This document shows positions 11,035 to 61,632 of a DNA stretch of 64,000 nucleotides, one piece after another (the first letter of the stretch is position 1; every line of letters starts with the position of its first letter). The DNA comes from Diphasiastrum complanatum (lineage: Eukaryota > Streptophyta > Lycopodiopsida > Lycopodiales > Lycopodiaceae): positions 10,672,230 to 10,736,229 of the forward strand of contig CM055097.1 of assembly GCA_029204225.1 (NCBI GenBank). Direction: 5' to 3'. The translations under genes and the position numbers were made by a program. The notes below the pieces were generated by a model. The model did not search any database and was not told where the DNA came from. It saw only the letters and a list, made by a program, of their open reading frames with translations.

Positions 11035-11094
11035 TTTGAAAAGTTCAGAACTTTGTTGGGTGTCAGTTTGAATAAAATTGCCATTAAGGGGGGG

Positions 11095-18585: not shown

Positions 18586-18703
18586 CATACCATGTGCTTG
18601 GACCCAACGGGGGTTGGCTTAGTTGGTTGGCGTGGCATCCAAAGTTTCTTTGTTCCCAAGTTCAAGCCTCCCCTTGGAAACTGAGAAGCATACCATGTGC
18701 TTG
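18586..18703 (+). mobile_element. Very short tRNA-like SINE, copy 1 (88 bp) with 15-bp TSD
   Basis: Perfect direct repeats CATACCATGTGCTTG at 18586-18600 and 18689-18703 flank an 88-bp insert (18601-18688). The insert has an A-box-like TTGGCTTAGTTGG, a B-box-like AGTTCAAGCC, and a terminal pairing CCAA.GGGG with CCCCTTGG that mimics a tRNA acceptor stem, followed by a short 3' tail AAACTGAGAAG. Long perfect TSDs are the signature of LINE-driven retroposition. A second copy is at 38497-38580. It is not a normal tRNA gene: the T-arm and anticodon region do not fit. Confidence 0.85.
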
Positions 18704-18825
18704 TACAAGGCTTCATGCAATTTAAACTTTGTGTTCTCATCTTCGAATGACATAACCTCCAAGTTGGAACATGTAAATGTGTTAACACCTTTTTGCACTC
18801 TCCTGGTTGGGTTAAGACGGCTCAA

Positions 18826-20125
18826 ACCTCATACTTTGATGCATCAGTATGCACATGAAACTCTATGGACCAATTGGGCGGTCTTAATATTGGCATTGAG
18901 ACCAATGCATCTTTAAGCTTCTGGAATGCCTGTAAGGCTTCCTCCGTCCAATGTGGTTCTGTTGTCAGCTTGTAGATTGGCCTTGCTAACTCCGCAAAAT
19001 CTAAAATGAATATCCGATAGTAGTTAGCGTGACCCATGAAAACATAGACTCCGTGAATCGTCCCTAGTGGTGGTAGATAAACAGTGATCATGATCTTGGA
19101 TAGATCAGTGGCAATTCCGTGTCTTGATACCATGTGGCCCAATATCAGGCCATGTGCCACCCAAAATTGACACTTCTTTGGATTCAAGGAGGTCTGATAT
19201 TCACGACATTGCTTCAACACTTTCTCCAAATTGGATAGGTGTTCTGTTCGGCCCATGTACGCATAGATCATCCAAGAATATTTCCAAGAACTTCTGCAGG
19301 TGCTCTTTGAATGTCGACTACATAACTCATTGAAAGGTGCTCGGGGCATTGCAAAGTCCAAACACATCACTTTGTAGGCATAGGTTCCCCATTCGGTGGC
19401 AAAAGCTATTTTGTGCTAATCTTCCGGCTTCTATTTTGACTTGATTGTAGCCATTGAAGCCATCTAGGAAACTATAGGCTTCTACTCCTGCTACTCGGTC
19501 CAAAACACTTTCCGTGAAAGGTAAGGAAAATTGATCTTTCTTTGTAACCACATTTAGTGCCTTTAGATTCAGATAGATCTGCATTTTTCCGTTCTTCTTG
19601 GGTACTATAACTATGCTCGATTTCATAAATAAAATCGGTGTCTAGCAGCTTCTACAACTCCTGTTTAATCAGCTCCGTGTAGTTAGGATTGCAGCAGTAA
19701 TATCTGCTTACCTTAGGGACTGCTCCGTCCACCAAGGGTATGGTATGCTGGACCATTGTTGGTGGTATACCCTTCAGATCCTTGTATGTCCATGTGAAGC
19801 AATCCTTGTATTCCACCAACAGTGCACATAACCTTGTGAATTCTGTGGGTGTCAATTGTTCTCCCACATAGACAAGTTTCTCTTCTTCGCATGGCTCAAC
19901 TAAGTTCATGGGTTTTGTTCGCGCAGGGCCTTCGAAGATTTGTTCTGCTGGTTCTTGATCAGGTTCCCTCTATGCTTGTGGCATCATGATTACTACGTCG
20001 TCTAAGGTATAATTCTTGAAGGTTTCCGACATCTCGTGAACTAGTGTTCGTCGAGATTCCTCCATCAACATGTTGATCTTAGCGCGACTTGTAATCTTCA
20101 AATTCTTAGTCATCTGCAACTTGGT
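18826..20125 (-). pseudogene. Ty3/gypsy reverse transcriptase fragment, minus strand
   Basis: Read right to left: linker with PTEFTRLCALLVEYKDCFTW and DLKGIPPTMVQHTIPL, then RT motifs IVIVPKKNGKMQIYLNLKAL, LPFTESVLDRVAGVEAYSFL, GFNGYNQVKI, the active site FLDDLCVHG, then LGHMVSRHGIAT and YKLTTEPHWTEEALQAFQKL. Frames change several times and stops occur. RNase H is cut off just after the HVHTDASKY motif. The fragment abuts a copia fragment of opposite orientation at about 20126. Confidence 0.85.
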
Positions 20126-20905
20126 ACCAAGATTAAGGTATTAAGGAGTGATAATGGAGGTGAATATATCTCCAATAAGTTTATTGACTTTTGTAGTTCT
20201 AATGGCATAAAGAGGGAGTTGTCATGTCCATACACCCCTCAACAAAATGGAGTGAGTGAGAGAAGAAATAGATCTCTTTGTGAGTGTGCTAAGGCCTTAA
20301 GGCTAGATGCTTCTCTATCCAAACCATTTTGGGGTGAAGCAATAACTTGTGCTAATTATTTGTGCAATAGATTGCCTAAGCAAGCCATTGGAGGAATCAC
20401 ACCATTTGAAGCTCTATTTGGAGAGAAGCCCAATCTCAAGGATCTCAAAGTTTTTGGATCCATTTGCTATGTACACCAATCCTTGGATAAGAGGAAGAAG
20501 GATGATGCGACATCCATCAAAGGCATCTTTGTGGGATATGGTGAGAATAGCAAAGGATATAGAGTCTTCAATCCCATCACTAGCAAGGTGATAGTGAGTA
20601 GGGATGTTATTTTTTATGAAGGACATGCTTGTGATTTGGATGATAATGCTACTAATCATCTTGATGCCAAGGATCATGCTAGGATGGAGGAGGAGCATCC
20701 AAGTGAAGAAGAACTTGAGGATCCACCTCAAGATGCAAGAACTCCAAGAAGATCTACAAGGGCAAGGACCGAGCCATTGAGGCTCACCTATGATGGTCAA
20801 GGTGATCAAAGGGAAGGCTCATCATCTTTCACATCTAACACTTTTCTTACTTCAATGCTTGATGAACCATTTTGCTATGAGATCTACATGAGGCAAACCA
20901 AGGTG
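20126..20905 (+). pseudogene. copia integrase fragment, plus strand
   Basis: Starts abruptly inside the integrase core (VLRSDNGGEYISNKFIDFC), has the Glu of CPYTPQQNGVSERRNRSL, then ITPFEALFGEKPNLKDLKVF, GIFVGYGENSKGYRVF and VSRDVIFYE, followed by an acidic linker. The first catalytic Asp and all of RT are missing. It is a different copia lineage from the element at 6.1 kb. Both ends are sharp junctions with gypsy DNA. Confidence 0.88.
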
Positions 20906-20914
20906 TACTCGATA

Positions 20915-21840
20915 TTTCTTGTAACGCCTATTCTTATGAGTTATTGCTTGGTCGACTATGGCTCACCAATGCAAAGGTCGTTCATGACTGGAGCAAAGGG
21001 CAAGTCACTTTTGGCAATAGAGAGAGCTCCGTTACCATTGATTCCTCTGGGAATGTCAAACCAGCACGATACCATGACAATGCTTCATCTACTACAAATT
21101 TTGTGTTTGAGCCATACCAGTCCACCCAAGAGAAAGGTCATTATGTTGAATCTACTGATATCATAAAGTGGAGCCACAATTTGGCTACGATTGATTGTGT
21201 AAATGCTGATTATTGTGCTCAAAATCAGGTTGATTGTACCTATACTCCCATGGTCAATAACAAACAACCACCTGATCTAGACACACCTATCATTAATATC
21301 AATTTTATTGATATTCAACCACACAATGATGAATTGTAAAATGTTGCATGGCTACCTACTGATGAATCAGCAGAAGTCTATCATGTCAAATGGCCCAATT
21401 ATCCATGGGACTTATGTGAGGAGGAAACAATTTATCAAATCGACGATGAGATCCTCAATGACGTGCCACCGATTCCTCATCCGCACACCTCATGCCCTCA
21501 GAAGTCACCACCTCGTGGCAATACCATGAAGGAGAAAATGAAGAAACCACATTTAATCCAACCTCTTGGAGACCTTAATGCTACTCGGGAAGTTCCTGAG
21601 ATCACTTTAGCTCACACACCTATCCCAGAAGCTCCCAAATCTCCATCAAGGTAGTTAAAAGGCAAAACTCCCCTCGAATCACCCACACATGATGTGCCTG
21701 CTCACTTTAAAGATTACACAATCGAGGATGTGACTATTCAATTAACACAAGCTCAACGCGAGCTGAATGGTAATTCACCTTACGAGGTCCTGCACAAACC
21801 ATCAATATATCCTTGAGTGAACCCAATGAGCATAACAAAT
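20915..21840 (+). pseudogene. Ty3/gypsy protease-RT linker fragment, plus strand
   Basis: Begins with the gypsy protease end motif YELLLGRLWLTNAKVVHDW and KGQVTFG, then a long linker (LATIDCVNADYCAQN, YHVKWPNYPWDL) that continues through several frames to about 21840. LATIDC also occurs in the minus-strand gypsy copy at 24.2-25.2 kb, so the two are related elements in opposite orientation. Confidence 0.7.
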
Positions 21841-22060
21841 AAATTGTTCACGTCGGGGCGCACCTCAGTCGAGAGCAATGCAGAAAGCTTGAAAATCTTC
21901 TAACTTTGTACAAGTACTTTTGCTACTTCCTTTCACATGTGGGAATAGGCTTCACACATGTGAGATCTGACTATGAACATAGATCTTAAGATTAACATAA
22001 TACATTGACCAAGTTGGAAGTGACAATTTCAACACTCCTCCTCAATTCTAACTTGGTAAA
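21841..22060 (-). repeat. LTR-like edge with polypurine tract, minus strand
   Basis: On the minus strand a purine run GAATTGAGGAGGAG ends at 22038 and is followed by TGTTGAAATTGTC, the expected PPT/3'-LTR border. The LTR would extend left to about 21840. Its start differs from the LTR start at 27935 (TGTTGGAGGG), so the two are not a pair. Confidence 0.45.
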
Positions 22061-22952
22061 TCTATGGTACGTCTATAAAAAACTTAAGAGGTTTGCTACG
22101 ATAATGTATCGGGCCTGAGATCCTCGCGCGACAGGATGAATAGGACCAACATAATCCAGTTCCCATTTTTTAAATGGCGCTTGCGATAAGACCGGATGTA
22201 AGGGTTCATAGTTTTGTCTAGTAGGTCGTCGTGTCGCTGGCAAACATCACATGTCTGAATATAGTTTTTTGTGTCCTTATAAAGCATAGGCCACCAACAA
22301 CCTGATTGCAAAAGTTTGCGAATTGTAATATCTGTAGAGAAGTGTCCTCCGCCCATGCCATCATGCAAAAACATGATTAAATCTGAGATTTCATGTGGTA
22401 AAACACATCTACATAGAATATTGTCTGATCCACGACGATACAATGGTCCTGCAATCAATTGATAAGGTTGAGCCTTATGAATCAGTTGCCTCTTCTGTAC
22501 TTTTGTCAAGGAGTCATTCGGTTGTCCTAGTATCATATACTCAACAATATTCGCTGCCCACTCAGGTACTGCCTCTACATAAAATAATGCAGCATCTGGT
22601 AATTCATCATCCACTTCAGTATTAACTGGTGCATATTCAATTTGCGAAACATGGTTGGCTAGATAATGTTGCTTTCCCTTATGAACCACAATTTGAAAGT
22701 CAAATTCAGTCAATAACAGTAACCATCTTGCAATATGCCCTATACTGCATGTCTTGTTTACCAAGTAAAGTAACAATTGGTGATCCGTATAAAATGCAAA
22801 GTGCGTTTCCATGAGGTAATGTCAAAATTTCCATACAGAAAAAATCATGGCTAACGCTTCTCGTTTTGTTGTGACATAGTTCTTCTCTGGGTCTGTAAGC
22901 TGTCTGTTTGCAAAACGTATCGGATAGTCCTTCTTATATTCACCTGGCTACG
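22061..22952 (-). pseudogene. Ty3/gypsy RNase H end and integrase N-terminus, minus strand
   Basis: Contains FYTDHQLLLYLVNK (RNase H), then the linker and the integrase HHCC zinc region: HDGMGGGHFSTDIT and CDVCQRHDD. The frame is open from 22812 to 22096. The catalytic DDE core that should follow is missing, so the element was truncated soon after the zinc region. Confidence 0.88.
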
Positions 22953-24240
22953 TCAAAATCCAATTGCATATTTCGAGGCATCAGTGTGAACATGAAACTC
23001 AATCATCCAATATGGAGAACGCAATATCAGTGCTGAGGCTAATGCTTTTTTTAATTTTTCAAAGGCTTCTAACGCCTCTATTGTCCAAATAGGAACAATA
23101 GTCAGTTTGTATATAGGTCTTGCTAAATCCGCAAAAAAAATAATAAAAATTCGATTATAGTTCGCATGAGCCATAAACACATAAACTCCACGAATTGTTG
23201 TTGGTAGTGGCAATTCCACAATAACCTTGATTTTGGAATAATCCGTGGCAATGCCATGTCTTGATATCACGTGTCCAAGAACAACTTCTTGGGAAACCCA
23301 TATCTGGCACTTTTCTGGATTCAAGAAAATTGGATACTTGAGGCAACGTTCAAATACTTTTTGTAATCGATCCAGGTGGTCTGTATCTGTGCTATGGACT
23401 CCAAGGTCATCCCAGTAAATTTCAAGAAATTTATGTTCTTAAAATTTGAAAGCAAATTGCATTACTATTTGAAATGAACTTGGTGCATTATAGAGTCCAA
23501 ACGACATTACTTTGTAAGCATAGGTCCCCCATTCTGTTGCAAAGGCTGTTTTGTGGCGATCTGCAGGTGCAATCTTGACCTGGTTGTATCCACTAAAGTC
23601 ATCCAGAAAACTATAAGCTTCCGCTCCAGCAAGGTGGTCCAAAATGCTTTTAGTCAAAGGTAATAGAAAGTGATCCTTTTGCATCACTTTGTTCAAGGCC
23701 CGTAGGTGCAATCTTGACCTGGTTGTATCCATAAAGCCATCCAGAAAACTATAAGCTTCCGCTCCATCAAGGCGGTCCAAAATGCTTTCAGTAAAAGGTA
23801 ACGAAAAGTGATCATTTCGCGTCACTTTGTTTAAGGCCTTGAGATTCACATAGATTCTCAATTTCTCATTCTTCTTAGGAACAATGACAATTGGTGAAAT
23901 CCATTCGGTATGTTCGATCTCATAAATGAAATCGACGTCAAGCAATCTCTAAAGCTCTTTCTTTATCAGATCCGCAACATTAGGATTACAGCGATAGAAC
24001 TTTTTAACCTTTGGAACTGCATCAAGTATTAAAGGTATAGTATGTTCAATAACTGACGTCGGAGTCCCTTTAAGATCTTTATAAGTCCATGCAAAGCAAC
24101 CTTGATACTTAATAAGCAACTTTCGTAGCGCTTGAAACTATTCAAGATTAAGTTGTAATCCAATTTGTACAATCTTTTCTGGTTCTCTTGGTTCAGCAAT
24201 ATTCATAGGCTGTGTCCTAGCTGGGCCATCGTAAATCATC
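22953..24240 (-). pseudogene. Ty3/gypsy reverse transcriptase with internal duplication, minus strand
   Basis: Motifs: EIEHTEWISPIVIVPKKNEK, LKALNKVTRNDHFSLPFTES, YSFLDGF, then a repeated copy of LRALNKV..DHFLLPLTKSIL and YSFLDDFSGYNQVKI, then TAFATEWGTYAYKVMSFGLY, the catalytic WDDLGVHS and LNPEKCQIWVSQEVVLGHVI. A tandem duplication (about 139 bp; copies start at 23565 and 23704) doubles fingers-palm sequence and would alter the fold even without stops. Confidence 0.88.
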
Positions 24241-25241
24241 TTTCAATCCGGGCACTTGTTCTTCGGGTTCACGATGTGCTTTGGGTAACATAATAACCAC
24301 ATCATCCAATGTATAGTGTTTAAAATGCTCGAGCATTTCATGCTGAACTTCATGTGCTTGTTCTTTGTCAAAAGGATTTGTCTTGGATCTTCGCTTAGCC
24401 TTCTTAGCAGGAATCGATCGTGGAGGCGATGACTTTCGAGAAAATAAACTCTTTTTCGAAGGTGAAGACTTCCTAGACGGTGATGTCTTGTTAGAACTCT
24501 GACTTGAGGAACTTTCCCTTTTTCTTTGTCCAGTAAGGGTGGCACATTCTTGGAATCAATCTTTTGAGGAGGATTTCCCCATTTCAGGACTGTATTATAA
24601 TGTTGCTTGGCTTGTTTCTTCGTTATTGAACTTGTGATCCTATCTTCCTTCATTATAACTGCTTTTGGCGGTTTTATTTTTGGTTCATTAGGAATATTAC
24701 GCACTCCGAATCTGGTCGGATCCATATGAATTAGAATCTGCTCATCAGTAAGTTCCGCATTGTCATCATAAGTCAAGGCATGACTCACATGAATGAGTTC
24801 ATCTTCAATCGGTTCTGGTATAGGCTCCGTGGGTATCCAAGCTACATTCAGAACATTCAATGGAAAAGTGACCGGTGTATCCAAAGTTCGATCCAATAAT
24901 GAAATCTCACTCAAATCGGATTGATTATCTTGTTGACACATATAACCTATTGTACAATCAATCGTTGCAAGAGCTTGATTCCAGTTGACAGTATCGGTTT
25001 GAGTGTCGTAATGAACTCTCCAATTTTTTACTGGTCGGTCACAAGTATGATCCATTGTTGATGAATCATCATCCTCTTTTTGAGCCACTAGTTTGATAGT
25101 CCAAGTTACAGGATCAACCTTGACTGCACGTTCACGATTTTCAAAAGTGATTTTCTTGTTGGTGTATGATGGTGGTCTGCGTGGTCTACGATTGATTGCG
25201 ACTACATCGGAGCCGTGACAGAAGCAGAACACGAGAGACAA
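24241..25241 (-). pseudogene. Ty3/gypsy protease-RT linker, minus strand
   Basis: A 332-codon open frame. It has no catalytic motif but includes KKITFENRERAVKVDP and ALATIDCTIGYMCQQ, related to the plus-strand fragment at 20.9-21.8 kb, and acidic DELIHVSHAL and proline-rich parts. It lies immediately upstream of RT on the same strand, as expected of the long spacer in this gypsy group. The upstream protease active site and gag are not seen. Confidence 0.7.
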
Positions 25242-25622
25242 TTACGATGTAAACGATGTCTCTACCAACAGTAAAGAAAAACAATTATGAACACAACAGT
25301 AACTGCATATTTTAGAAACGAGGATTGATTAGAGAACGGAATCAAAAGCTTGTTGTCCTTTTGGATGATCAGAGTAGGAGTCTGAGACTACCGTAATGGT
25401 AGGATTGCGAAGCATTAGGCGTCTTGGACAACCAAGTGATCCTCTGTCTCTGATAATCATGTTTGTGTGCAAGAGAGTGAGAGAGACAATTGCATTCAAT
25501 CAAGAACGTAATAATTGAACAATAGCAAATCTGTATAAAAGAGAGAATCGGAACACAATACAATAGTGTTGATAAGCGTGTATTCCTATTTACAGATTCT
25601 GAAACAATAGCTACAGTTCTAG

Positions 25623-25664
<42 letters not shown>

Positions 25665-27142
25665 CACTAACTCTAAGGAGCTAGCTACTTAAGACCTTTT
25701 GGTCATTTGATCGCTTTGTGCATCTACAGATTGTTCAACTCACTACACTCTGATTTTCTAACTCCTTCTCTTCGCTCAGATACATATATATAGCTGTCAG
25801 AGTCTTTTTATTTATTGTAATTACAGTTTACAAGATGATTACAGCCATTTAAACAAGATCCGTAGATCCGTTATTGGAGCGTCGTGAAGGAGGAGAAGTA
25901 CAGAGTAACGTATCCTCTGTATGCGTCGTAGCATGAAGGACGTTGGGCCATTGTGGTCATAATCTTGTCCGCAGTCGTTCGTTCAGCCGCTGATTGTTCG
26001 TTCAGCTGCTGTTCATTTGTTCAGCAGGTGATCGTTTGCTTCCTTCGTTGGTAACCGTAAGTGATAACTTACGAAGCTAAATGATGAGATGGGTCAACAA
26101 TTGTTAGTTGACTTCGTAGGAACTTGCAAGTTGTTTGTCATTCGTCGACTTCGTTGATAGCCATAAGTAAGTTACTTACGGTGTTTGATGTGAGTTCACA
26201 GACTTCATCGGAGATATTTTCGGGTGGCTTTAATCACGGCTCTTTCCGTCGTAGGACATCGTAAGAAGGTCACTTACGGTGGTCGAAGAGATTTTAAGTT
26301 TCATTGCCATTGAATATTTCGAGAGAATCTGACACAAATCAAGCTAGGGTAGAACTGACGAAGGTTCCTGGCACATAAAAGCACAGTTTTTGTAGTTTGG
26401 CGAGGGTAAAAATAGAAATTTTCTATGATCCGGATATAATGAATGTTTGTTGAACTCAAAAATAACAAACTACTATAAATAGAATAATTTGAAAACTCGG
26501 CGAAGGTTTTGGCGAAGAATCAAGAGTAATACTGGTATTTTTGCAAAAAAGAGATTTTTTTGACAAAAATATGACAATATGACAACTGATCCTCTGAGAA
26601 ACCTTTTGTTTATGATATTATTCTGTGTCGACCTGGCAGAAGATAGATCGGAATCACACCTATGCACATTGAATCGGACGAAGGTTCTTTTTCTGTATTT
26701 TTAGGATTTTTGGTGATTTTTTGGTGGTTTTTATGATGTTTCTGAAAATCTGCTGGGAAGGATTGTTCGCCCTTCAAACTGAAGGTTCTTGATCAAAACC
26801 GAAGGTGCCTGCAACTCGGTGAACGTTTTCTAAAAGAGAGCAAAAAGTTATCAGCTCTGATGATGATTTTTGTCTTCTTTTGACCAAAATCTGACAGATT
26901 TGACCAATTTTTGTTGTTTTTTCTGATATCTCAGATCTAGATGGATCTTAAGGTTGGTGATCTGAATAGCTTTCCTTGTTCCACAATCAGATTAGATTCA
27001 AACAAGAAAATCCACTCAATCCTGGTAAAATCACTCCCAAACTAACCCTAAATGCAAATTTAACACTATTCATGTGACGAGAAGATGCCTAATGCAAGCT
27101 AACCATCCAACAAACATGTTGCAAACTGAAAAATTGGCGTAG
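25242..27142. other. Non-coding, gypsy-associated; short hairpins and a GT tract
   Basis: No gag frame is seen in the 1.9 kb between the gypsy linker and the primer site at 27143. It holds a (TG)n tract (25624-25660), three hairpins of the form CGTAAG...CTTACG (26055-26073, 26161-26181, 26259-26279) and recurring GCGAAGGTT words (26340-26840). Confidence 0.55.
25624..25660. repeat. (TG)n microsatellite
   Basis: Uninterrupted TG dinucleotide tract of about 37 bp. Confidence 0.97.
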
Positions 27143-27161
27143 CTCCCCGACAACGGTGCCA
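27143..27161 (-). promoter_or_regulatory. Gypsy primer-binding site, tRNA-Asp type
   Basis: On the minus strand TGGCACCGTTGTCGGGGAG differs by two transitions from the plant gypsy primer site complementary to the tRNA-Asp 3' end. It starts a few bases beyond the inferred LTR end at 27166, so it marks a minus-strand element whose interior extends to the left. Confidence 0.8.
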
Positions 27162-27165
27162 AAAT

Positions 27166-27377
27166 TGTAGTGGGTTTCTTTCCTTGCCTATCCTCAACCC
27201 AAGATCTAATCAATCTAGCATCAGGGTGATGAAGCTAGTTGTCACGCGTAGGTTCGTTCCCATGAGAGCGATAGCATATTTCAGATTTCAGCAGATTCAG
27301 ATCTAATCACTAACATCCATTATCCCTAAGCATTAACACTACAACCATTAACACTATGATCCACAATGAAGATAGCT

Positions 27378-27427
<50 letters not shown>

Positions 27428-27935
27428 TTCTCTCTCATAAAAAGTATAAAAACATGCAAACCCAATAACAATCAGATCCAACAATTGATAAATCCAATGA
27501 AAGCATGAGAGATGGAGGAAAAGTGATAGAGAGCAAGGACATTCATAAATCCATTTCACAAGAGAACCAATCTGCTTTATTGAAATGAAGATATGTACAT
27601 GTGTAGGAAACTCGAGTTGGTCCCTTTTTATAGTAGAGATGAGGACCCTGGCCTCTTAATCCTATTGGTCCATTTCTGCCTCCCTAACTATTCAAATTCA
27701 AAAAAGAGTGGGAACCATCCAAATTGGAGGGAAACCCAACTTTATTCACTAACTTGACATTTAGGCCCTGCGACATTAAAAGTCCCGCAAAAAGACCTAA
27801 AGTCCTTTTATTGACTTTTTAATTATTCAAATCTCTATGTGATCATCGAGTTGGACTTACACATGCATGGTGCCAAATCTCTCTCACTTATTAACTAGGG
27901 CTAGGGTTGCCTCGGGATCCGCAAACCCTCCAACA
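27166..27935 (-). repeat. 5' LTR of minus-strand gypsy element
   Basis: About 770 bp, TG...CA bounded (plus-strand ends TGTAGTGGG and CCTCCAACA). It contains a CT tract (27379-27424). The right-hand 165 bp (27769-27935) recurs at 49813-49978 and both copies stop at exactly CCTCCAACA, which supports this edge as the LTR end. No matching partner LTR was found in the window. Confidence 0.7.
27379..27424. repeat. (CT)n microsatellite inside the gypsy LTR
   Basis: CT dinucleotide tract, about 45 bp. Confidence 0.95.
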
Positions 27936-29690
<1,755 letters not shown>

Positions 29691-29709
29691 TCAGCTGCAT
29701 TACCATGAC

Positions 29710-29895
29710 GAATTAAAGGAATGAGAGAAGGAAAGGCTCACCGGCGGCATCACGCAGCTCTTGAAAGATGGCGCTACGAAACACGGAATTGAAATCATTC
29801 GTGACATCAACTTGTATAACAACCCAATCTGGGTGGCCATCCAGAATAGCACGCAAAGCATGAACCCCTGATTTAATCTTAGAGCCATTTACCAT
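29710..29895 (-). pseudogene. Small fragment of a non-LTR reverse transcriptase
   Basis: The minus strand reads VHALRAILDGHPDWVVIQVD then FNSVFRSAIFQELRDAAGE, which aligns with HALHAILDLHPDWVVFQVDV and AIFQELRATHG in the larger element at 47.7-51 kb. Only the palm segment with the first catalytic Asp is present. It shows that the family has more than one copy here. Confidence 0.75.
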
Positions 29896-29899
29896 TGGA

Positions 29900-31273
29900 T
29901 TTTGTCATCAACGTTCAGATTTAGCCCTGTTTTCATAGTTAAATATAAAAAAGATCACAAATGACAACATATGCCATGTGTCAAACATCCAACTTGTTGG
30001 GGGTGGGGGTACATTCTTTATCTTGTTATCTTAATCCCATGCCATTCCTCTCCACCCGTTGGATATTTGTTGTAAAAGTTTAGATTTTTTGCCCATTACT
30101 AATAAACAACCAATGAAAAGAGTCCAAGTGGAAAAGATGCAAGAGGTGTAGTGCAAATGAGTAGCTCCCATTAATTGGCCAAAGATGAAGGAAGAAAGGT
30201 AGATGGTGGTGCTTTTTATTCTCTTGTTATGTTGTTGTTGTTGTTGTAGTAGTAGCAGCAGCAATAATAAGAGGAGGGAGTGGCACTGGGGCATCGTGCA
30301 GTTATGATGATTATGGGTTGAGCGTGCTTTTTGGGCGAATTGGCAGAGAATATGATGAAGGTGGAAGTGCCTGTCTCTTGTGTAAAAGTGGAGCTCCCAC
30401 CTTTTAACAATGCCCAGCAGCAGCTGCTTCTAGCGTCATCATCAAGTCCTGCAACACCGGATCGGTAAAGCAGATGATGGGGGCCATTCCAGTATGTACA
30501 TATGATATGTATTCGTGGGCGAGAAGCCTCCACCTTGCACGACTTCTCGAGCACAGCACTCACAATGGGTCCTGCACTAGTCCTGAGTTGTAGTGTCACT
30601 AAAAGCACGTAACTTTGAGTTGTTTATGCATTTCTTGTTTTTCTTTTTGTGTGGTGGGCACCAGCGATCTGCTCTGTTTTGGAAGTACAAGGAATAAAGG
30701 CATTCAAGGAGTATGGTGCACATTAATAAGTGGAAGGAATGAGTGAGTACCCACTATAATGCCATGGACATTGGAGATGGTCACTGTTTTGCGGTGTGAT
30801 GGATCAGCAATTCGCGTGATGTAGGTCATTGACCACTCGATGATGTGGCGAGCGAAAGAAATTGGGTTAAGTGCACGCAGCAGGTGATGGAGATCGTGAG
30901 CAAGTTGATGGGCGTTTTGTGAGGGTGGCAGGCTGGCTCTTGCCGACTGTCCAGTGGGAGCTTGTAGTAGGGGAATTTTGCCACTCCTTGTGCTTGCGGA
31001 GGTTCAATTTGTCTTTAGAGTGCAGGTGATAAGTTTTTCAGGTTTCCTGGAATGAAGATCGTGTTTTGGGTAGTTTCTAGAAGAGAATTTTGAGGAAGAT
31101 TATGATGTGAAGATTATGAAGTGCTTCACTGGCTTACAGATAAAGTAGATCGAGTACCGATTGGACTAACAATGAGGAATAGGTATAGTACATGATCTGC
31201 AGGTGAAAAATATGTGATTTCTGAAGAATGAAAGGCGAAGCTTTGATGTGAAAGATGATCTAGAAAGTTTGAT

Positions 31274-31335
<62 letters not shown>

Positions 31336-33370
31336 CTAGTACCACTATTCTTCATTGCCACTTTATCCACAGCGTAATAAGGACGAGCACTCAGGTCGCA
31401 AAAGCAAGATGAAAATGGGTTGGATCTCTTGAAATGACCGACAGTGGAATTTCATTTGTCATGGCATGGATTGGTAGTAGCTAAGAATAGGAAGACTTGT
31501 TCATATCTTTGTCAAAGAGCAGGTAGTTACAAAATGCATTCAAGGCAAAGAAATCGCAGAACGTACTCTGCTGAAGGTAATATTGGTTTGCGTTACTCAG
31601 CATGAAATTTTCATGAAATTTTGGACGGAATGGCTTGATGACCGTTAAGCTTTTTTGGCTGTTTATTTTCAATGCTGCATGAAGTCCTTTGCAAAGCATT
31701 AGGATCATGGTTGGTTGGCTGTATCGTGCAACTTATTTTAGCTTTCCAAGTTATCGAACAATCTCTACTCGATATAGACATGTCTGACTATCATCCATAA
31801 TCTATGCCTTGAAGATGATCATGTAAATAAATAGCTAATGTTGAGCATAATGCCCTGAATCAAAGATTGCATCTACTCCAATCTTTTGCGCTGCAACACA
31901 TAACATATGGCAATCAAACCTGAGCAACATGAGTGAAATGTATGTCCGTCAGTCGAGATTAGCTAGCTGGAAGGTAAAATCAATTGTGTTCCTTGCAAAA
32001 TTTCAGGGAATTTCACTTCTCACATCGTACAACCGTTGTCTCTTGAACTAACTATCACTATTTGCTCTCCACGTGCAATTTCTTAACTTGATAGCACTTA
32101 CAAAGGAATGCTATCCTGGAACCTTAGAGCTTTGCAGCATGTGTTGCTTTCCTGAATGCTTTCTAGATCGGTTGAATCGTAGATCTGGTTGTGGAAAGGA
32201 CCAATGGCAGTTTCACTGAATGATTGCCAATTCATTAACCTACTCAAAACCAGCATCAATCTGTTGGAGTGTGCATCTTTTTATGGCCCACATGAAAGTG
32301 ATATGATTCATACCAGGTTGATATCGTATTTAATCTCTGACAATTCGTTATTTTTGACTATCCAGAGCTAGTGACAGTTATGAATCTTATCAGAAACTTA
32401 ACATTTGTTCTAGATCGAAAGCACAACTGATTTTGCTTGGTACTCAGGGTTAACCAATAATGTGCTTCAAAAGAACTGCCATAGTGAGTCTGATGAATAT
32501 ACCTGCATTAAGAGGCAAGTTAAAACCAAGAACTTTCTAAGCATGACACTTTTGCAGAAGTGGGGTAGCTTGCATGTATGCATAGAGAAGCCCAGCACCT
32601 TCGCTTTTGAAATGTTCAAAACCAATCTTAGCTATTGGGGTTTCTAGGCATTCGTATAAATCTGTGACATCTTCTTTTCTTTTTTTTCCAATGTAAACTC
32701 AAGGCTACAACACTAGTTAGATAAACCAGGGATTGTGCAGTGATTTATGAGTGCCAAAAACTTGTAGCAACGACCTGTGCTTGAAGAACTGCCTGTTACG
32801 CTTAGAACATCTCCATCGATAGGTAACCTTTATATGGTAGCAGAGATTCTGAGGATACAAGGCAACAAACATCAAGTCAATTAACTTCCAAAGTGTCAAA
32901 CTTTGCTATGATTCTACACGTCCTATAGCCATCTGGAATAAGCTGTTATATCCCAGGGACCGACAGGAAAAACTTTTATTGGTGACGTGCTGAAATATGT
33001 ACTATCATATGTCCGGGTTTCCATGTCAAAAGAAGTGATCACATTGTTTGGGTAGTTCAAATGATACAACACAATATCTTGGAGAATAATAGTTTTCAAC
33101 AGCCATCCTTCCAGAATCGGCACAATACATCGCCTTGTTGCATTTGGTATGGGCTTGGGAATCTAGTCTGAACAACATTATCTTCCATGAATAGAGAATT
33201 ATTCAGTGGATTGTACTTAGATATGACACATGCGAAGGCCATATTTGTCATAATTAAAATTAAAAGGGTTTCTGCAATAAGCAAAATAGTCGGGCCTCTA
33301 TCAGCTATCTAGAAGAACTGCATTCAACAGAAACAAGCTGAAGTTAGAGTTTGCTATAATTTCGCACTCA
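29900..33370. other. Non-coding; two unassigned minus-strand open stretches
   Basis: No recognised gene. On the minus strand about 30690-30990 is open without a start (contains FARHIIEWSMTYITRIADP), and about 30380-30560 reads AHEYISYVHTGMAPIICFTD in one frame; neither is recognised. A GA tract lies at 31277-31331. Everything else looks non-coding. Confidence 0.4.
31277..31331. repeat. (GA)n microsatellite
   Basis: Uninterrupted GA tract of about 55 bp. Confidence 0.97.
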
Positions 33371-33372
33371 GT

Positions 33373-33636
33373 ATGAAAGTTTTACCATTCTCCTTCACTT
33401 TTTCCCTCATTCAGATCTTGCTAACGGTTTCAGTACTTAGTCATCTTCCTGTATTAAGTGGTATCTGGGAAGAGGATGCTCTGAACATGTCTGCTATCCA
33501 ATCTATACTTCTCGAGAATCGAGATATCATTGGAAATTCTGTTGAAATGGAGGCTGAACCAGAGCTAGGACTTAGGAGTAACTTTGTCAATGTGAAGGGT
33601 TCAGCGTTGAGCTTTAGCTACTTATTGACGCCCTAA
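33373..33636 (+). CDS. Hypothetical small protein with signal-peptide-like start (weak)
   Basis: 87 codons, ATG to TAA. The first 30 residues are hydrophobic with a basic Lys2 and small residues before a possible cleavage site (VLPVLSG region), then an acidic segment (EEDALNMSAIQ, EMEAEPELG). No family recognised. It lies 0.4 kb upstream of the first RopGEF exon on the same strand, so it could also be part of that gene's 5' region or chance. Confidence 0.25.
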   Translation: MKVLPFSFTFSLIQILLTVSVLSHLPVLSGIWEEDALNMSAIQSILLENRDIIGNSVEMEAEPELGLRSNFVNVKGSALSFSYLLTP

Positions 33637-34055
33637 AGGGGCTTCTGTTTCTGCTGGTTTTTTTCCCAGATAGCCATACACCAGTCCTGCAAGCCCTGTT
33701 TAAAACGAAAAAACATGAGTTTACTCCTAGATGAAACCACTTGTTTTCCTACTTGACAAGGGGATTGTCGTTGATAAACATGAATTTTTGTTGTTTTCAT
33801 CACCTAATAAGCCATAGTGGCCATGGATACAAAGAAGCTGAGAGCTGATATGTAAATTGGAGCTGTGATAAGCTATACGGTTACACAATCTGCTACTTGA
33901 CAGAATTTGAACCTAATGGTATTGGATTTAATGTTTTAAAAATATAACTGGCTTACTGATCAAATTTACATACATGTGCTTGGATGTGTAATATAGCTAG
34001 TTTAATATTCTAGTTATTGCTTGCTTATGGCTTGTAATAAGAGCAAAGGGATGGT

Positions 34056-34422
34056 TTGTTAATGCACATTAATGATGTCTTCTGCCAAACCGATGCAGGC
34101 GTATTGGAACGTGCGCCTGGGCCTCCAAGTGGTTCTTCTCACAATGGAGTGAAATATCCCATGGAAGTGATTTGGGATGATAAAGAACAAGCTTACTTGG
34201 ATGTTCCGAGCTCAAATGCAGGCTTGGATAATTCAAGTTTGGAAGGGGCCGTCGAAAATCTGAGCAGCAGTCTCCATCAGAACAAAGCTCTAAAGGAAGC
34301 TTCCCCATTGGGATGGCCTTCAAACAGACATGAGAAGTTATCCAACCCTCACAAACTGAGCCCTACATATAGTAAACCTATGTGGGAAGAGAGAAGAGAG
34401 AGAAGGGAGACTGAAGTGTCAG
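34056..34422 (+). CDS. RopGEF exon 1 (variable N-terminus)
   Basis: Open from ATG 34056 to a donor AG|GTTTGT at 34422. It encodes the divergent Ser/Pro-rich N-terminus found before the PRONE domain, ending RRERRETEVS; the last base combines with the next exon to give EVELMKERF, the usual PRONE start. The start codon is uncertain: an acceptor-like TGCAG ends at 34098, so an upstream exon is possible, and ATG 34159 is another candidate. Frame length is compatible with all six following exons. Confidence 0.7.
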
Positions 34423-37160
34423 GTTTGTTCGAGTCCTCCTTACATGGAATTTGGTTTCACTTTGTGCATGAAGTGGTTAAAAAGTGTTCTTTGCAAAGAA
34501 TGTCACCATTATGTCTAGCAATATGCAATAGATATATTAGAATAGTTTTTCCTTGAAAGAGCTTAAAATATACAAGAGGTTCTTATTTATTTTGGCGTCA
34601 AGCAGTGGAGACTATTTTGGATTCAACAGGTATTTTTTCAGTCTTACCGCAATACATCCCTTTATCAAGTCAATTCTATGTACTCCTATTTCTGTAGGCA
34701 GTCCAAACATCTTGATACATACTTAATAAGTTAGTATGCCTCTTCATTTCTTGTTCTGAAAGTGATCTAGATTAATTCAAGAATTTTCGAAGTGCTATTG
34801 AGATAATCTTAACATCATCCTAATCTATCAGTCCATCAATGATGTTGACCTTGCTCTCCCCATAAACTTCACGGTTCGAGTCTTCCAAAATTATCTGTCC
34901 TTACTGTACTTTTTGTCCTCTTCAGTCTCATAACGTTCCATGTGATTGATTATCATGTGCTCATCATTGTTTGTTTGAATGAGGGAGATGTAAAAGGAAT
35001 TTCACCTAGATATTTATCCTTTTCCCGGTGTAAGATTATCTCATTTGGCTCCTCAAAAAGGTTCTTGCCAGTGGTAAATTGCACATCTTTCTTTTGCAAA
35101 TTAGTAGTGGCATCCACTTAGTATATTCATGGTCTACCAAACAACACCAAATAGGTTGGTCTTCCTACTTGTCGTATAATAACAAACTCCATAATGAATA
35201 ATTGATCTTGTACAAGTACCATCAACTTGCCAATTTTTCTTATTGGCCTTCTCCATTTAGAGTCTGCCAATTTCAAATGCTTGGAAGTTGGCACAATCTT
35301 ACCCAAAATTCCCAATGCATGGGTAGTTTATATCCAATTGACAAAAATTCAAAAGTCACTTTCAAATCTTGGTTTCAATTGGCAATCCTTAAGCTTGAGA
35401 CATCCATTCACATGCACTAGAATATGTTATCAGACTTTGATGTGTCATCCATCTTGATAATATCCATATAGCTATTTGTGCTTACTAGATGCATGATCTA
35501 CATCATCGAAATGTGAATCCATCAAAACTTGGATAGTGACTGGACCATCTAACATTGTCATCTGTAATTGTGAAACCTTTCCTGAACCCGAGCCAACTAA
35601 AACCAAACATGACATAGGAGTCTAGGGAATTGAAATGGTTGATGAGAAAGTGGATGGCCAGAGGAAGAAAAAGCAAAGGCCAAGCTTGGGCCGAAGCCTT
35701 TGAATATCACCAGAAGATATAAAAAATGATCCAGACTACGGCAGGAATAACAAAGAATACTTTGAAAAGGATATACCTAAAGAACCCAAGGAAACGATAG
35801 AGTAAGAGTTATCTATCAAGAAAACAACAAATGTAACCTTCTCCTGATCCGGTGGCATCTGAAAGCAGTAGTTGATAATGTGAAATTACCAGCTAGTATT
35901 TCCTATGATATCGTTCTTGGATTTACTCCGTTTTTTCAGTTAGCTGGTATGCCATGCAAGGGAAGCAAGTTCCACCTGCAAAAATCAGCTTTCAAAAACT
36001 CTGAAAAAACACTGGAATTTGGAATGAAATAGATTAATCCATTCATGGGACTTCTCTGCTTATGTTCCATGTCAAAGAGATGATACTACATTTTCATTTT
36101 CATGCTTATGCTCTTTGAGGACCTATAGTCAACAATAGCATTCCTACTATTGTTTCAAACATGATAGGATGTAGACTTTTCAAACATGCTTATGCTCTTT
36201 GAGGACTTATAGTCAACAATAGCATTCCTACTAGTTTCAAACATGATAGGATGTAGACTTTTCGTATTTCTGGATTTTTGACGAGTTTCTCTATAAAGAC
36301 CTTAATATTTTTGGTGGAGAAATCGATCCTGAAGACTTGTCAACTCAATCGTATAGCCAGTGGTTATAACTGCAAATGTTTAGAGCTTCCTGTAGCCCAG
36401 ATCAGCTCAGGTTCATTGGTTGATAGTTTTAATAAAAGTTTGCAGCCAGAAAATTGCAATGTGAATGTAATTTGCATGTCTCATTTTTCTTCAATTATTT
36501 ATAGTTTCTTCAAATATGGAGGGATAACTTCTCAATTGTTTAGGTTTTTTCACCTTTGTACTAGTGGCGATGCTTCTGTGAACCAGCTAACTCATTTATT
36601 TATCTTTTCACTATATAAAACTTATTTGTGAATTTAAGAAAATCCAAAAAAGTTCGAACTATTCAAGACTCTAACAGTGGTGTCTCATGTATTTTGGCTT
36701 TTGCTATGCTCAAGATCATTAATCGTAGAATTCAGAAAAATGGGGAGCTAGCAAGCCCACTGGTGCTGCTTCAGGCTTCTTCTTTCTTTTTGTTTTCTAT
36801 ATTTTCTTGTTGGGTAACATTTGCTTCTTGGTCAATGCTAGGTTTACTGAAGAGATTTTGGCTTCTCCCGAAATGCAAGTTTTGCTTTCTTCTTTTACAT
36901 TGTGGTTTTTATATGGACTGCCTTGAGTTTTTAGGTTGCATGTGTCTTTTTCCTACGCTTTACTTAATGGCATTACTGACTTCTCAAATCGAGTTTGTGA
37001 GTTTGGATATATTCCAAATCTCACAAGGAGATACAGCTTATTTGTACTGCTAGGTTGCCTGGCATACTTCTTGGAGTATTTTGGCCTAGCATAAATAATC
37101 TAACTCCATTTAATGAAGGTTGTATTATCAAACATTCATTTTCTGCATTTTTTTTTCCAG
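34423..37160 (+). other. RopGEF intron 1
   Basis: 2.7-kb intron with a GT donor and a TTTTTTTTCCAG acceptor. It holds a tandem duplication at 36102-36262. Nothing else recognised. Confidence 0.7.
36102..36262. repeat. Tandem duplication of about 80 bp
   Basis: CATGCTTATGCTCTTTGAGG to GATAGGATGTAGACTTTTC occurs twice in direct succession, with a 3-bp deletion and one substitution between copies. Confidence 0.9.
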
Positions 37161-37277
37161 AGGTAGAACTTATGAAGGAAAGATTTGCAAGGTTGTTGCT
37201 TGGGGAGGACATGTCTGGTGGAGGAAGAGGAGTTTGTACTGCACTGGCCATTTCGAACGCAATCACAAATCTTTCAG
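37161..37277 (+). CDS. RopGEF exon 2, start of PRONE domain
   Basis: 117 bp encoding [20 protein letters not shown] then [18 protein letters not shown]. These match PRONE subdomain 1, which is specific to plant ROP guanine nucleotide exchange factors. RopGEFs catalyse GDP release from ROP/RAC GTPases at the plasma membrane and are usually controlled by receptor-like kinases. Split codons at both ends (phases 1 and 1) match exons 1 and 3. Confidence 0.95.
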
Positions 37278-37424
37278 GTATAACTGATACCCAGGATATG
37301 TCCAACATCAATTTTATGATGATCACGAAGACATCTTATCTATTTAAGTGACTATGTTAGTTGGTTTCATAGAATTGCTATTATGTGTGACTTATGACAT
37401 GTTGGCTTTTTTCGGGCATGGAAG

Positions 37425-37579
37425 CTTCGGTGTTTGGAGAGATTTGGAGGCTGGAACCATTGTCTCCTGAGCGCAAGACCATGTGGCGGAGAGAAATGGA
37501 ATGGCTTCTGTCAGTTACAGATCACATTGTTGAGCTTGTTCCTACATGGCAGACTTGCCCGGATGGAAGCAGCACAGAG
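37425..37579 (+). CDS. RopGEF exon 3, PRONE
   Basis: 155 bp encoding [40 protein letters not shown] and [11 protein letters not shown]. The WRREMEWLL segment is a PRONE hallmark involved in dimerisation and ROP binding in the family. Acceptor is ATGGAAG, a weak polypyrimidine context; donor is GAG|GTAATT. Confidence 0.95.
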
Positions 37580-39641
37580 GTAATTCATGGAAAAAGCTTT
37601 GGCATGTTTTTGAACTGGCTTAAGTGAATGCAAACTTTGTTTCTGTGCTTTTTGTTCTCCCTGGTAGCATTCGCCAAAAGAGCTCTTGATTCAAGTTCAA
37701 AAGGCTAACTTTTTAAAACCAGGCACCGAGGACATGAATACTCCCCAGTGCCAAATGAATAAAACAGATCACTTTAAGATGGGTGAACTATTGCATCCAT
37801 TTGAATTCCAGCAAGTAACGGTAAAATAGATTATGGGTACATTTCACAAAGAAACATACAGTAATTGAATCTAGGAGATTCGGAATCAGGAGTTGCACTA
37901 ACTTAATGTGACAGAAAGAACTAAGGGCATGGAGATTGCTGAAAGTAACTAACTAGAATGACATGAATTCTAGGATTGATAAGCTCTTACTGACACGTTG
38001 CCTTGTCAGCTCATAAATTCTTGCTTACAAGACTTTTATTGAAATGCATATTGAGTTTATGCTATATCAAAATAAAATCACTAATTGTCTCAAGTAGCCT
38101 CAAACCAATCAACGACGTTATGATTAATATCTGAGATATTTTGTCAAACAGAAAATCATAGCTGTAAAACTAATATAGTTCCACATTTTACACAATAGAA
38201 TCCTTATTATAGACAAAAAAAATGGTTTATCTTTAGTAATCCTTGTATCACCAATCTTTCCTATTCTGAAGCAGATACAGAATTCTCTGCTCATAAATTT
38301 CTGTTATATAACAGGTTAGTTTACTAGTACATGCAATTTGCTGGTATTACGATTAATTATTTGACCTACAACTTCATCCTCATGCATTCCTCTGGTATAT
38401 TAGATTAGTTTAATAAATGCTCCTGGTATTCTTCTTATGCATTCTCAATGTTTGAAGTTTATCAGTTTTATGAAGTTATTATAGATGTAGTTAATGCTTC
38501 TTGGTTTCCAAGGGGAGGCTTCAACCTGGGACCAAAGAAACTTTGGATGTCAAGCTAGCCAACTGAGCCAACCCCATTGGATAGATGTAGTTAATGGATC
38601 TGCTGCATCTGATCAGAATTGCGCAATCTTCCCCCCTTTCAATCACTTCTCCGGTTGAGTGATATCACATTTTGATGTGCTTTGTTTCTCTCAGCAAACA
38701 TTCTCGAGCAAGGGCTGTATGGGGTTATCTTCATAGAGTCTGACTGGTCCATCTTAAATGAGAATTCTTTCAGTAACGTTCTTAAGAATTCTCAGTAAAA
38801 TTCTTAACCTAATACACCCTCTAGTTGCATCAGATATGGTGTATACTTAGATTCTAAAGTCGATGATACCACTGTACTTTGCATTTTGCTATTTCAACTT
38901 ATGTCAGTAAAGCTTATGGTTGATTTTCTGGTGCATACATCTCCTGCTCAGTTTCAATCCACTTCCTCTTGAGTATGATGCCAAGTTGAATATAGCTCAT
39001 CACTCTTTTTACTTCCTGGCAGCGCATATGACCAAGATCATTCAGGCATAACATTGAATTTTTTTTTTGTGAATTTTATGCATTCCGAGACATAAAAAAC
39101 ACTTGTTGATGCAGCCATCCATTTTAGTAAGCTGAATCATTCCTTACCTGTGTCCAGTCATCTCCTGTTTTTACAATTGAGTATGCAAGCAACAGCAGAA
39201 TAGATTTGTAGCCACATTGCAGAAAGAAACATACAGAAAACCAAAGCTAGGCAATTTAAAGTCAGATGTAAGACAAAACACTCTAGACATGAAGGTAGCA
39301 GAAAGCAACTAACGACCAAGAATGGCCTGAATAGCATGACTGATGAGCTCGTACACTTACACATTGTCTTTTGAGCTTGCCGATTCGTGCTTACCAGAGT
39401 CTGTTATTAACTTACTGTTTTTATACCATGATCAGATGAATCTCTCTCTCAACTACCCTCTGACTAATCTATCGCACAGTGAATAGCTGCAAAACTGGAA
39501 CATGAAATTGTAGTCTGTACTGTTTCCATTTTTCTGTTTACTGAAATGTTCTCTTTGGAAAAAAATTTTAGCAAGAGGGCTGTGCATCTGCACTTGGCAT
39601 ATACTTATTCAGGAATCTTTTGTTGATGTCAACATGTACAG
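37580..39641 (+). other. RopGEF intron 3, carrying a tRNA-like SINE
   Basis: 2.06-kb GT...AG intron. It contains the 84-bp SINE copy at 38497-38580. No other gene is recognised. Confidence 0.8.
38481..38596 (-). mobile_element. Very short tRNA-like SINE, copy 2 (84 bp) with 16-bp TSD
   Basis: Perfect direct repeats ATAGATGTAGTTAATG at 38481-38496 and 38581-38596 flank an 84-bp insert in the minus orientation. On the minus strand it shows A-box TTGGCTCAGTTGG, B-box-like GGTTGAAGCC, terminal pairing CCAA.GGGG with CCCCTTGG, and tail AAACCAAGAAG, colinear with the copy at 18601-18688. Unique flanks show that this is the whole unit. It sits inside RopGEF intron 3, antisense to the gene. Confidence 0.88.
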
Positions 39642-40119: not shown

Positions 40120-40831
40120 GTGAGTGTTTTGTACTTTATTACATGTCTACATTTTATGTGAAGAAGCATGACTCTATGCTTTTCATCTCAATTCAAATCA
40201 TTTTGTTTGTATGGATGTAGATCCTTTATTGTTTAAGATGTTGATGAGTTGTAGCCACCAAGAACCAATGAGTAACCCTTTAGCTGAACTTGCATTATGC
40301 AGTGATGCTTTGTAAAAAGTTAAAGGGCAACTTAAGCCCTGAGTACTTCCACTCCCCTACGTTGCAATTTGGCTGCCAGAGGTTTTTAAGCTGTTTGTAC
40401 TTGAAATTTAGAAGAAAAAGCCCAAAAAGATGATCAGCATATAGTAGTTTGTGTGACAGACATTTCATATCCTTAAAACAGTTCAAACGTTAAAGGTAAA
40501 AAATAAAAGGTTTGTGAATTAATCACATGAAATTGGGAGCTGCTAGATGTTGCAATTGCATTTGCAGGGCATACCATCATTTTGGTTGTGGAAATTCGAA
40601 TCTTTGCCTTTTTCACTGAACATCAGACGCTGCATCATCGTGAACTAATCTGCATGAGAAGATAAAGGAACTGAATAAGAGAATTGAAAGTGATATGTTC
40701 ACTGCTCTTGGCAGATCGAACATGAACGATGAATTTCACGCCTAAGAGCACATTTTATCAGATTAAGTTTTTCAAGTGGAGAAACTTCAACTACACTTTA
40801 TCAACTAGCAAGCACATCTTTGTGTGCAGTT

Positions 40832-41197
40832 TGTCTTACAAATTCTAGACATGGAGTTGACTAATCCTATTAGCACTCACATACACATCAAGATCTACAT
40901 AAGAGATAAAGAGCTTAGATTATGAAGAGAGCAATAGCTCAATACATTGGAATAATCTTGTGGTGGGGCGCCAGCCTACATATAGACTTTCTTTAATCTA
41001 TGTGAAAAGCTAAAAGCATCAAGCTAATGGTTTGCACTTATTTTTAGGTGCAGATCCTAATCTAGTAGTAGTGCGCCCACCTACATGCATAAGCAATAAA
41101 AAATGAATTTACTATAAATAGTAATGGCCCCTATAATAGCACTCAGGCATGGCCAAACTATCATTAAGGGGTATCAAATAAACATTAATTCCTAACA
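40832..41197 (-). repeat. 3' LTR of the RopGEF-intron copia element
   Basis: 366 bp, plus-strand ends TGTCTTACAAATTC and AATTCCTAACA. It lacks 10 bp near its left end and about 80 bp of internal sequence compared with the other LTR. Confidence 0.92.
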
Positions 41198-42290: not shown

Positions 42291-42660
42291 TTGTCCCTAT
42301 GTGTAGTTGTCTCCCAACTTCACATTTGATCCACCATCTAATTTTTGAAAATTAGATAGCCACTCCCACCTAGTATGCTTTGAAGCTCCTGAATCAATAT
42401 ACCAATAGTCTTCTTCCTTTGAGAAGTCACTACTAGAAGATGTTGATGTCGAAAACAACTTATGCATAGTCTTCAAGATCCAAAGCACTCAATTTTGCCT
42501 TAGATGTTTCTTCTTCTTCAGCAAAATTCTCATCTTGTTTTTTCTTGAACTTGTTGTGCCAGCACTCCTTTGCATAATGCCCTGATTTTCCACAAACAAA
42601 GCAGATTCCCTTTCGAACTACTTTCTTTCCATCTTCTGATCGAATCTGCTTTCACCTCAG
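42291..42660 (-). pseudogene. copia gag zinc knuckle and protease start, minus strand
   Basis: A CX2CX4HX4C knuckle (ICFVCGKSGHYAKEC) near 42560-42605 is followed by the protease site YWYIDSGASKHTRW near 42370-42410. The protein then stops and the RT end begins, marking the internal deletion near 42290. Confidence 0.85.
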
Positions 42661-42819
42661 CGATCCACCAAGTTTGATTCCAGTGAATTGATCAACATGC
42701 AACTATCGATCCGACACGCAACTACCGCCAACGATCCACTCCTCCAATCCAATTTTTGCAATCCTGCAAAAAAGCAATCTCTCTCTCTCTCTCTCACCAA
42801 AAAGCCTGCTCTGATACCA

Positions 42820-51057: not shown

Positions 51058-51060
51058 ATA

Positions 51061-57422: not shown

Positions 57423-57483
57423 CAAAAAATTTACAGTTCTGTGGTGTGAATAGATTTTGTGATCCAGACTCATCTATCCAGTA

Positions 57484-61620: not shown

Positions 61621-61632
61621 ATTGAGGGAGAG

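Follow-up and report, generated by a model that had tools for sequence, protein, structure and literature searches.

Can a module of fewer than 90 bp, with neither a body nor a homopolymer tail, be a complete retroposon, and how would the machinery that moves it recognise its RNA and choose its target? This question is raised by a 64,000-nucleotide stretch of the genome of the lycopod Diphasiastrum complanatum (contig CM055097.1, positions 10,672,230 to 10,736,229; hereafter "the window"), in which an initial annotation, made from the letters alone, had recognised two copies of a tiny tRNA-like short interspersed nuclear element (SINE). Our analysis of the window and of further copies sampled from the same assembly makes it very probable that the unit, at roughly 84-88 bp, is a non-coding SINE in its complete form: a head of RNA polymerase III (Pol III) type leads straight into a short 3' end of fixed sequence, CTTGGAAACCAAGAAG, body and homopolymer tail are both absent, and the element is mobilised at Y/CAT-like sites (the slash marks the cut), where copies can stack.

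The two copies in the window, hereafter A and B, are colinear and lie exactly at the coordinates, on the strands and with the lengths initially annotated. Their parts are the following, with position 1 being the first letter of the window:

18586..18600, + strand: left target-site duplication of A, CATACCATGTGCTTG, which starts with CAT and is preceded by T
18601..18688, + strand: SINE copy A, 88 bp
18615..18626, + strand: A-box of copy A, TGGCTTAGTTGG
18660..18668, + strand: B-box of copy A, GTTCAAGCC, 33 nt past the A-box
18673..18685, + strand: possible 3' hairpin of A, CTTGG-AAA-CTGAG (two G-U wobbles), then AAG
18689..18703, + strand: right target-site duplication of A, CATACCATGTGCTTG, perfect
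38481..38496, - strand: target-site duplication of B on the 3' side of the element (CATTAACTACATCTAT in element sense)
38497..38580, - strand: SINE copy B, 84 bp, antisense in an intron of a PRONE (RopGEF-type) gene
38500..38512, - strand: possible 3' hairpin of B, CTTGG-AAA-CCAAG, then AAG
38517..38525, - strand: degenerate B-box of copy B, GTTGAAGCC (majority in the genome sample: GTTCGAGCC)
38559..38570, - strand: A-box of copy B, TGGCTCAGTTGG
38581..38596, - strand: target-site duplication of B on the 5' side of the element, perfect (ATAGATGTAGTTAATG on both sides of B)

When the window was compared with itself, A and B were 87.3% identical over 79 ungapped columns (E about 9e-24), and no further relative of either was found in these 64 kb, the next match of A being at E 0.58. 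The duplications of A (15 bp) and B (16 bp) are each perfect and differ in sequence, as had been annotated, and a direct repeat of at least 15 bp at both edges was found in only 14 of 20,000 random placements of 84- or 88-bp segments in the window (with 5 nt of slack). When the flanks were compared within the window, neither A nor B turned out to have a paralogous empty site there. The annotated 5' boundary of A, and with it the length of 88 bp, also held: a start at CCAA, giving an element of 85 bp with an 18-bp duplication containing one mismatch, was dropped, as (G)GAC stands ahead of CCAACGGGG in many genome copies.

Further copies were searched for in the window's own assembly (1.745 Gb in 5,176 contigs, where the window is G000:C6:10672230-10736229) using two queries. 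Query 1, corresponding to A with its duplication, gave 43 matches (best 40 of 1,441 candidates), namely A, 39 places elsewhere and three minor side matches, and query 2, corresponding to the bare B element, gave 44 matches (best 40 of 882 candidates). The 39 other places of query 1, 30 of the 40 places of query 2 and the two window copies amounted to 71 loci with 89 matched rows. After removing two rows short of the 3' end and collapsing loci whose right flank was identical, the sample, with A and B counted in, came to 61 distinct loci, of which 54 contain a single unit and 7 several units (L101, which has units on both strands, was counted on the strand of the majority of its units only). Thus, the unit is a short, non-coding, interspersed repeat with many copies, as expected from the SINE family that had been proposed, and not a lone tRNA gene. 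Two extra copies (L119 and L136) were detected at E <0.05 in 30 loci of about 3,084 bases (27 distinct) besides the index copies and stacks, which suggests a copy number on the order of 10^4, or about one per 40 kb, with a wide error and from an estimate that includes the 64-kb window with its two copies, chosen because it contains them. Pattern scans of viral and prokaryote contigs (67 loci) gave a best match of 21 identical bases (E 5.8e-5), and none of the matches listed spans the unit.

If the unit were only the 5' part of a longer SINE, its copies would share sequence beyond the duplication. Among the 54 single-unit loci of this best-scoring sample, no pair was alike at E 1e-3 in the adjoining 200 nt on either side, indicating that, within the sample, no longer element includes the unit. 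The same flanks bear on the hypothesis that the unit is a Helenus element, meaning a long terminal repeat (LTR) with a tRNA-like part. As described in the available text of PMC10886601, Helenus LTRs contain A and B boxes and one plant family (from Selaginella) has an LTR of only 120 bp, but plant and fungal members make 5-bp duplications, in contrast to the 8-18 bp described below. Moreover, since the single-unit loci share no adjoining sequence, neither a second LTR nor an internal part is present, and we consider this hypothesis extremely improbable.

A target-site duplication (score of 8 or more) was found at 54 of 54 single-unit loci, compared with 63 of 10,595 cases when left flanks were swapped, and all these copies end at one and the same 3' base. 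Duplication lengths range from 8 to 18 bp with a mode at 15 bp, in keeping with the roughly 8-20 bp expected of SINEs: 15 bp at 16 loci, 16 bp at 12, 14 bp at 10, 17 bp at 6, 13 bp at 3, 18 bp and 12 bp at 2 each, and 8, 9 and 11 bp at one each. These lengths also help in judging whether the unit could be a foldback DNA transposon, similar to a miniature inverted-repeat transposable element (MITE), with imperfect terminal inverted repeats CCAANGGGGTTGGCT / AGCCTCCCCTTGG. Its termini do pair in both window copies, but plant DNA transposons make short duplications of fixed size, beyond which the duplications observed here extend; furthermore, the unit extends at its 3' end 11 nt beyond the inverted repeat, the 5' CCAA is missing from some copies and 5'-truncated copies exist, making a DNA transposon very improbable.

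The right-hand duplication starts with C and then A at all 54 loci, followed by T (48) or C (6) and then by T (38), A (11) or C (5), while the base ahead of the nick is a pyrimidine in 53 of 54 cases (T 29, C 24, A 1). The target site is then Y/CAY, mostly Y/CATT, with a bottom-strand cut at about 5'-AATG/R. Since query 2, which had no duplication and hence lacked CAT, gave the same pattern, with CA beginning 36 of its 37 right flanks (stack units included), the CA start is not an artefact of the query. For comparison, the common motif of mammalian L1 is given as TT/AAAA in the part of PMC5322556 available to us.

Is this motif a property of the target, or is it brought by the element? The right-hand duplication starts with CAC in 6 loci and the left one does so in all 6, and the first four bases are equal on both sides in 52 of 54 loci, the mismatching pairs being L085 (left CACT, right CATT) and L105 (left CATG, right CATT). 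This agreement indicates that the third base of the site mostly follows the target and not the element. A model in which the RNA itself ends in CAT and passes it on to the genome is weakened by the 6 of 6 matching CAC pairs, with L085 speaking in its favour, and CA alone could still come from the RNA. A related hypothesis is that the copies are "tailless" retropseudogenes, made from a longer RNA with an internal ...AAGAAGCA... that is primed at one hot spot, such that the copy ends in AAG and the target supplies the complement of CA. According to the available part of PMC5322556, mammalian tailless retropseudogenes of tRNAs have, like our unit, no poly(A) or other homopolymer tail, together with defined single-stranded ends and a target that complements the final 2-18 nt of the RNA; the invariant CA at the junction would fit this, as would L085 with its left CAC and right CAT. 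These retropseudogenes are, in contrast, truncated pieces of cell RNAs (PMC5322556), whereas the unit is a family with variants and one fixed end: all 54 single-unit loci stop at one base and none is longer, the third base is target-derived in the 6 CAC loci, the head has a full promoter, and variants that share the 3' end suggest that copies bred copies. A tailless retropseudogene origin is therefore improbable, and we retain the interpretation of the unit as a SINE.

The 3' end of this SINE, CTTGGAAACCAAGAAG, comprises a possible hairpin plus AAG and is free of poly(A) or poly(T). The tail AAACYRAGAAG that had been annotated is correct in its letters for A and B; among 40 aligned genome copies, the majority tail is AAACCAAGAAG, and copy A is alone in having TG in place of CA. 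The majority sequence of these 40 copies as a whole is GGACCCAACGGGGTTGGCTCAGTTGGTTGGCTTGGCATCCAAAGTTTCTTTGGTCCCAGGTTCGAGCCTCCCCTTGGAAACCAAGAAG, followed by the CAT of the duplication, so that the duplication comes directly after a fixed and, as annotated, non-homopolymeric end. The candidate hairpin CUUGG-AAA-CCAAG has an energy of -4.1 kcal/mol in B and -0.9 in A, and about 20 nt follow the B-box in the unit. This identical 3' end is combined with at least three 5' variants. At the 5' side, a leading GGA also lies within the target duplication in several loci (e.g. L081, L082, L084 and L091), and L085 and L098 carry GAC or GGAC as additional bases; the first bases of the RNA are thus probably (G)GACCC or ACCC, and microhomology may be involved at the 5' junction.

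The head was assigned to the Pol III type from sequence matches to a box consensus. The boxes of the family are TGGCTYAGTTGG and GTTCRAGCC, 33 nt apart in copy A. Both boxes are complete in A, while B has an A-box and a B-box one base off this consensus, meaning that the A-box and B-box-like words first reported for both copies were present, the second of them in an imperfect form in B; the majority sequence fits the two boxes better than B does. As a measure of chance, 60 simulated sequences of 64 kb contained 36 A-boxes and one A+B pair in total. It is these two boxes, and nothing else in the unit, that suggest a relation to tRNA. Copies that start with AAAAACGGGG weaken the case for an acceptor-like stem CCAA/TTGG as a conserved fold that the unit requires.

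In 7 of the 61 loci (L098, L101, L104, L120, L127, L130 and L137), two or more units are stacked head to tail, separated by near-identical, duplication-like spacers of 12-19 nt that start with CAT. The stack at L120:1003-1690 has eight units with one common spacer: two units are of the GGCATCC/GGTCC type and the remaining ones, over the length present in each, of the GACATCC/GGTCTC type, and three are 5'-truncated (at consensus positions 30, 36 and 39), each beginning directly after the spacer. Since template jumping would give no spacer and tandem duplication neither mixed types nor truncations, the best reading of the stacks is that of repeated insertion into a regenerated site. We also considered that they may arise by tandem duplication or by unequal exchange between duplications, which would produce near-identical spacers and would suit those full L120 units that are very alike. 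Against this stand the adjoining units of different sequence type (in L098, L101, L104, L120, L127 and L130) and the three distinct truncation points in L120, each right behind a spacer, making such an origin rather unlikely, even if exchange may have multiplied some units after they had been inserted. The frequent reuse of one site may reflect either an intrinsically strong site or an attraction by the resident AAG/CAT junction.

How may such a small unit move? As judged from its boxes, it would be transcribed by Pol III, and the protein of a resident long interspersed nuclear element (LINE) would bind the fixed 3' end of the RNA, perhaps via the hairpin CUUGG-AAA-CCAAG and AAG. The junctions suggest that the LINE endonuclease would then nick the bottom strand at AATG/R-like places (Y/CATT on the top strand), that first-strand synthesis would begin at the final ...GAAG of the RNA, or at ...GAAGCA if CA pairs with the primer, and that a second nick, mostly 13-17 bp off, would leave a duplication of equal length. 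This duplication would rebuild the site, and more copies would insert, giving the head-to-tail stacks whose anatomy we observed, with the duplication as spacer. We see about an even chance that this model is right as a whole, i.e., that a minimal SINE is moved by a LINE endonuclease preferring Y/CAY and that the target is rebuilt at each insertion, generating arrays with one duplication per unit. If it is, non-LTR retroposition would be a way for tandem repeats to arise in a plant genome. With a promoter and some 20 nt, the element is very small for a SINE, and its exact 3' junction, without the poly(A) or poly(T) thought to be read by plant LINEs, means that the RNA feature needed can be tested on a tiny module; the Y/CAY site and the stacking at one site offer a handle on the partner endonuclease and on how short tandem arrays may start by retroposition.

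Several observations weigh against the SINE interpretation or parts of it. ARAGORN found no tRNA in the window or in 17 genome loci, and an Rfam search was equally negative for tRNA, both around the two window copies (threshold E 10) and in four loci (threshold E 5), so that the boxes are what stands of the original description as "tRNA-like". The fold of the whole unit is close to that of shuffled sequences (A: z 0.39, 133 of 200 shuffles at least as stable; B: slightly better than shuffles, z -1.27, 22 of 200 at least as stable), and although the terminal pairing CCAA.GGGG/CCCCTTGG that had been called conserved is present in both window copies, some genome copies are without the 5' CCAA. 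The 3' hairpin is also disrupted in some copies, e.g. L098 and L111. As for the junctions, TATT, instead of CA, is found behind the last unit of the L120 stack, a clear CAY is missing after a decayed copy in L136, and the left CAC and right CAT of L085 are what a T supplied by the RNA would give. The sampled copies, being the best-scoring ones, are probably young, and multi-unit loci had more chances of being sampled, so that the rate of 7 in 61 may be too high. Finally, both a Pol III transcript and a partner LINE sharing the 3' end are predicted parts of the model.

Candidate partner LINEs were looked for in the window. A LINE-like element on the + strand, placed at 47.7-50.9 kb or, more widely, at 47710-51200, carries a PF00078 reverse transcriptase (E 1.6e-9), for which R2 proteins are the nearest relatives of solved structure (E 1.3e-4). 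Neither by eye nor by pattern did its 3' end show likeness to the SINE tail, and a 10-base match to CCTTGGAAAC at 50780-50789, in its coding part, is at chance level, since many other 10-base matches occur. By eye, a later frame of this LINE (50486-50920) resembles a restriction-type endonuclease region, without a Pfam match. Comparing the tail with resident LINEs, as initially advised, came down to three LINE-like 3' ends in the window, which matched none of the fetched SINE loci. On the - strand, LINE-like 3' ends at 540-720 and 1380-1470 finish in (CT)n, followed by CATT or CATA, which hints that they may share the target taste of the SINE; no duplication was identified for the LINEs of the window, including these two (CT)n ends.

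How does the unit compare with known SINEs? Simple SINEs such as rodent ID also consist of a head and a tail with no body, but ID, unlike the unit, has a tail rich in A and clearly derives from a tRNA; the plant Au and p-SINE families are longer than the unit. SINEs usually, though not universally, end in poly(A), poly(T) or a simple repeat, in place of which our family has the fixed AAACCAAGAAG. In Ohshima's list, as far as available (PMC3747384), the 3' ends of plant SINEs are (A)n, (T)n, T2-5 or (TTG)n and those of the SINEs of a green alga (ATT)n, (CTTT)n or (A)n, and no SINE in the table ends like the unit; there, (A)n is also the end of 224 among the 233 L1 families of flowering plants, the 7 RTE families having (TTG)n or (TTGATG)n, and a 3' hairpin is described for a stringent plant L1 lineage and its SINEs. 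Among the families described in that source, the poly(A) plant SINEs of tRNA type (S1/AtSN/BoS, LJ_SINE, OsSN and others) are like the unit in being non-coding, in their A and B boxes, in their duplications and in their many copies, but they end in (A)n, not in AAACCAAGAAG (PMC3747384). Au and p-SINE are, like the unit, tRNA-type plant SINEs without poly(A) and with no known partner LINE; they end in (T)n or T2-5 (PMC3747384) whereas the unit ends in GAAG, a distinction drawn from 3' ends and not from a sequence comparison. Tobacco TS SINE and maize ZmSINE2/3 have a LINE-derived fixed 3' end possibly read by a stringent LINE, which is a hairpin in the maize/sorghum type, but the ends shared with LINEs measure about 100 nt (TS) or about 50 nt (maize/sorghum; PMC3747384), as compared to the roughly 20 nt past the B-box here. 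Relative to these known plant SINEs, the unit represents a family of about 88 bp with a defined target preference and an unusual tail. Literature searches, which included six strings of the unit, found no description of it, with a limited coverage that leaves room for one in print or in repeat databases. As for fern genome papers, the singular whole word SINE is absent from the main text of PMC9477723 and PMC12868710, the latter mentioning SINEs in passing. Nothing more on the unit came from PMC8825457, PMC11490119 or PMC10741241.

Concerning the surroundings of the two copies, PRONE frames (Pfam PF03759), which mark the host as a land plant, are found on the + strand at 37.0-37.6 kb and 39.8-44.8 kb, and the intron hosting B in antisense lies between pieces that cover positions 39-97 and 117-209 of the PRONE profile; by eye, a short exon is located downstream of B, near 39.65 kb. 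Copy A is outside recognised genes, with a pol fragment of Ty3/gypsy type (18822-19415) some 130 bp away. The locus of B is present twice in the assembly (on C39 and C6, as L115 and L116) with identical element and duplication, perhaps as a second haplotype, and L117/L130 and L125/L126 are comparable pairs of look-alike loci. The window also contains a nearly complete copia-type element at 6150-11490 (+ strand), with LTRs 96% alike, copia-type frames between them (by eye) and a 5-bp duplication, TCAAT; an older copia-type element at 56371-61895 (+ strand), whose LTR-like ends are about 85% alike and enclose long reading frames; and a copia-like insertion at 40830-43266, in an intron of the PRONE gene, which is internally shortened and has repeated ends at 92-95%. 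An inverted repeat element with 88-bp arms at 91% was observed at 51770-52467, and a 156-bp direct repeat with 99.4% identity, its starts 197 bp apart, at 27-379.

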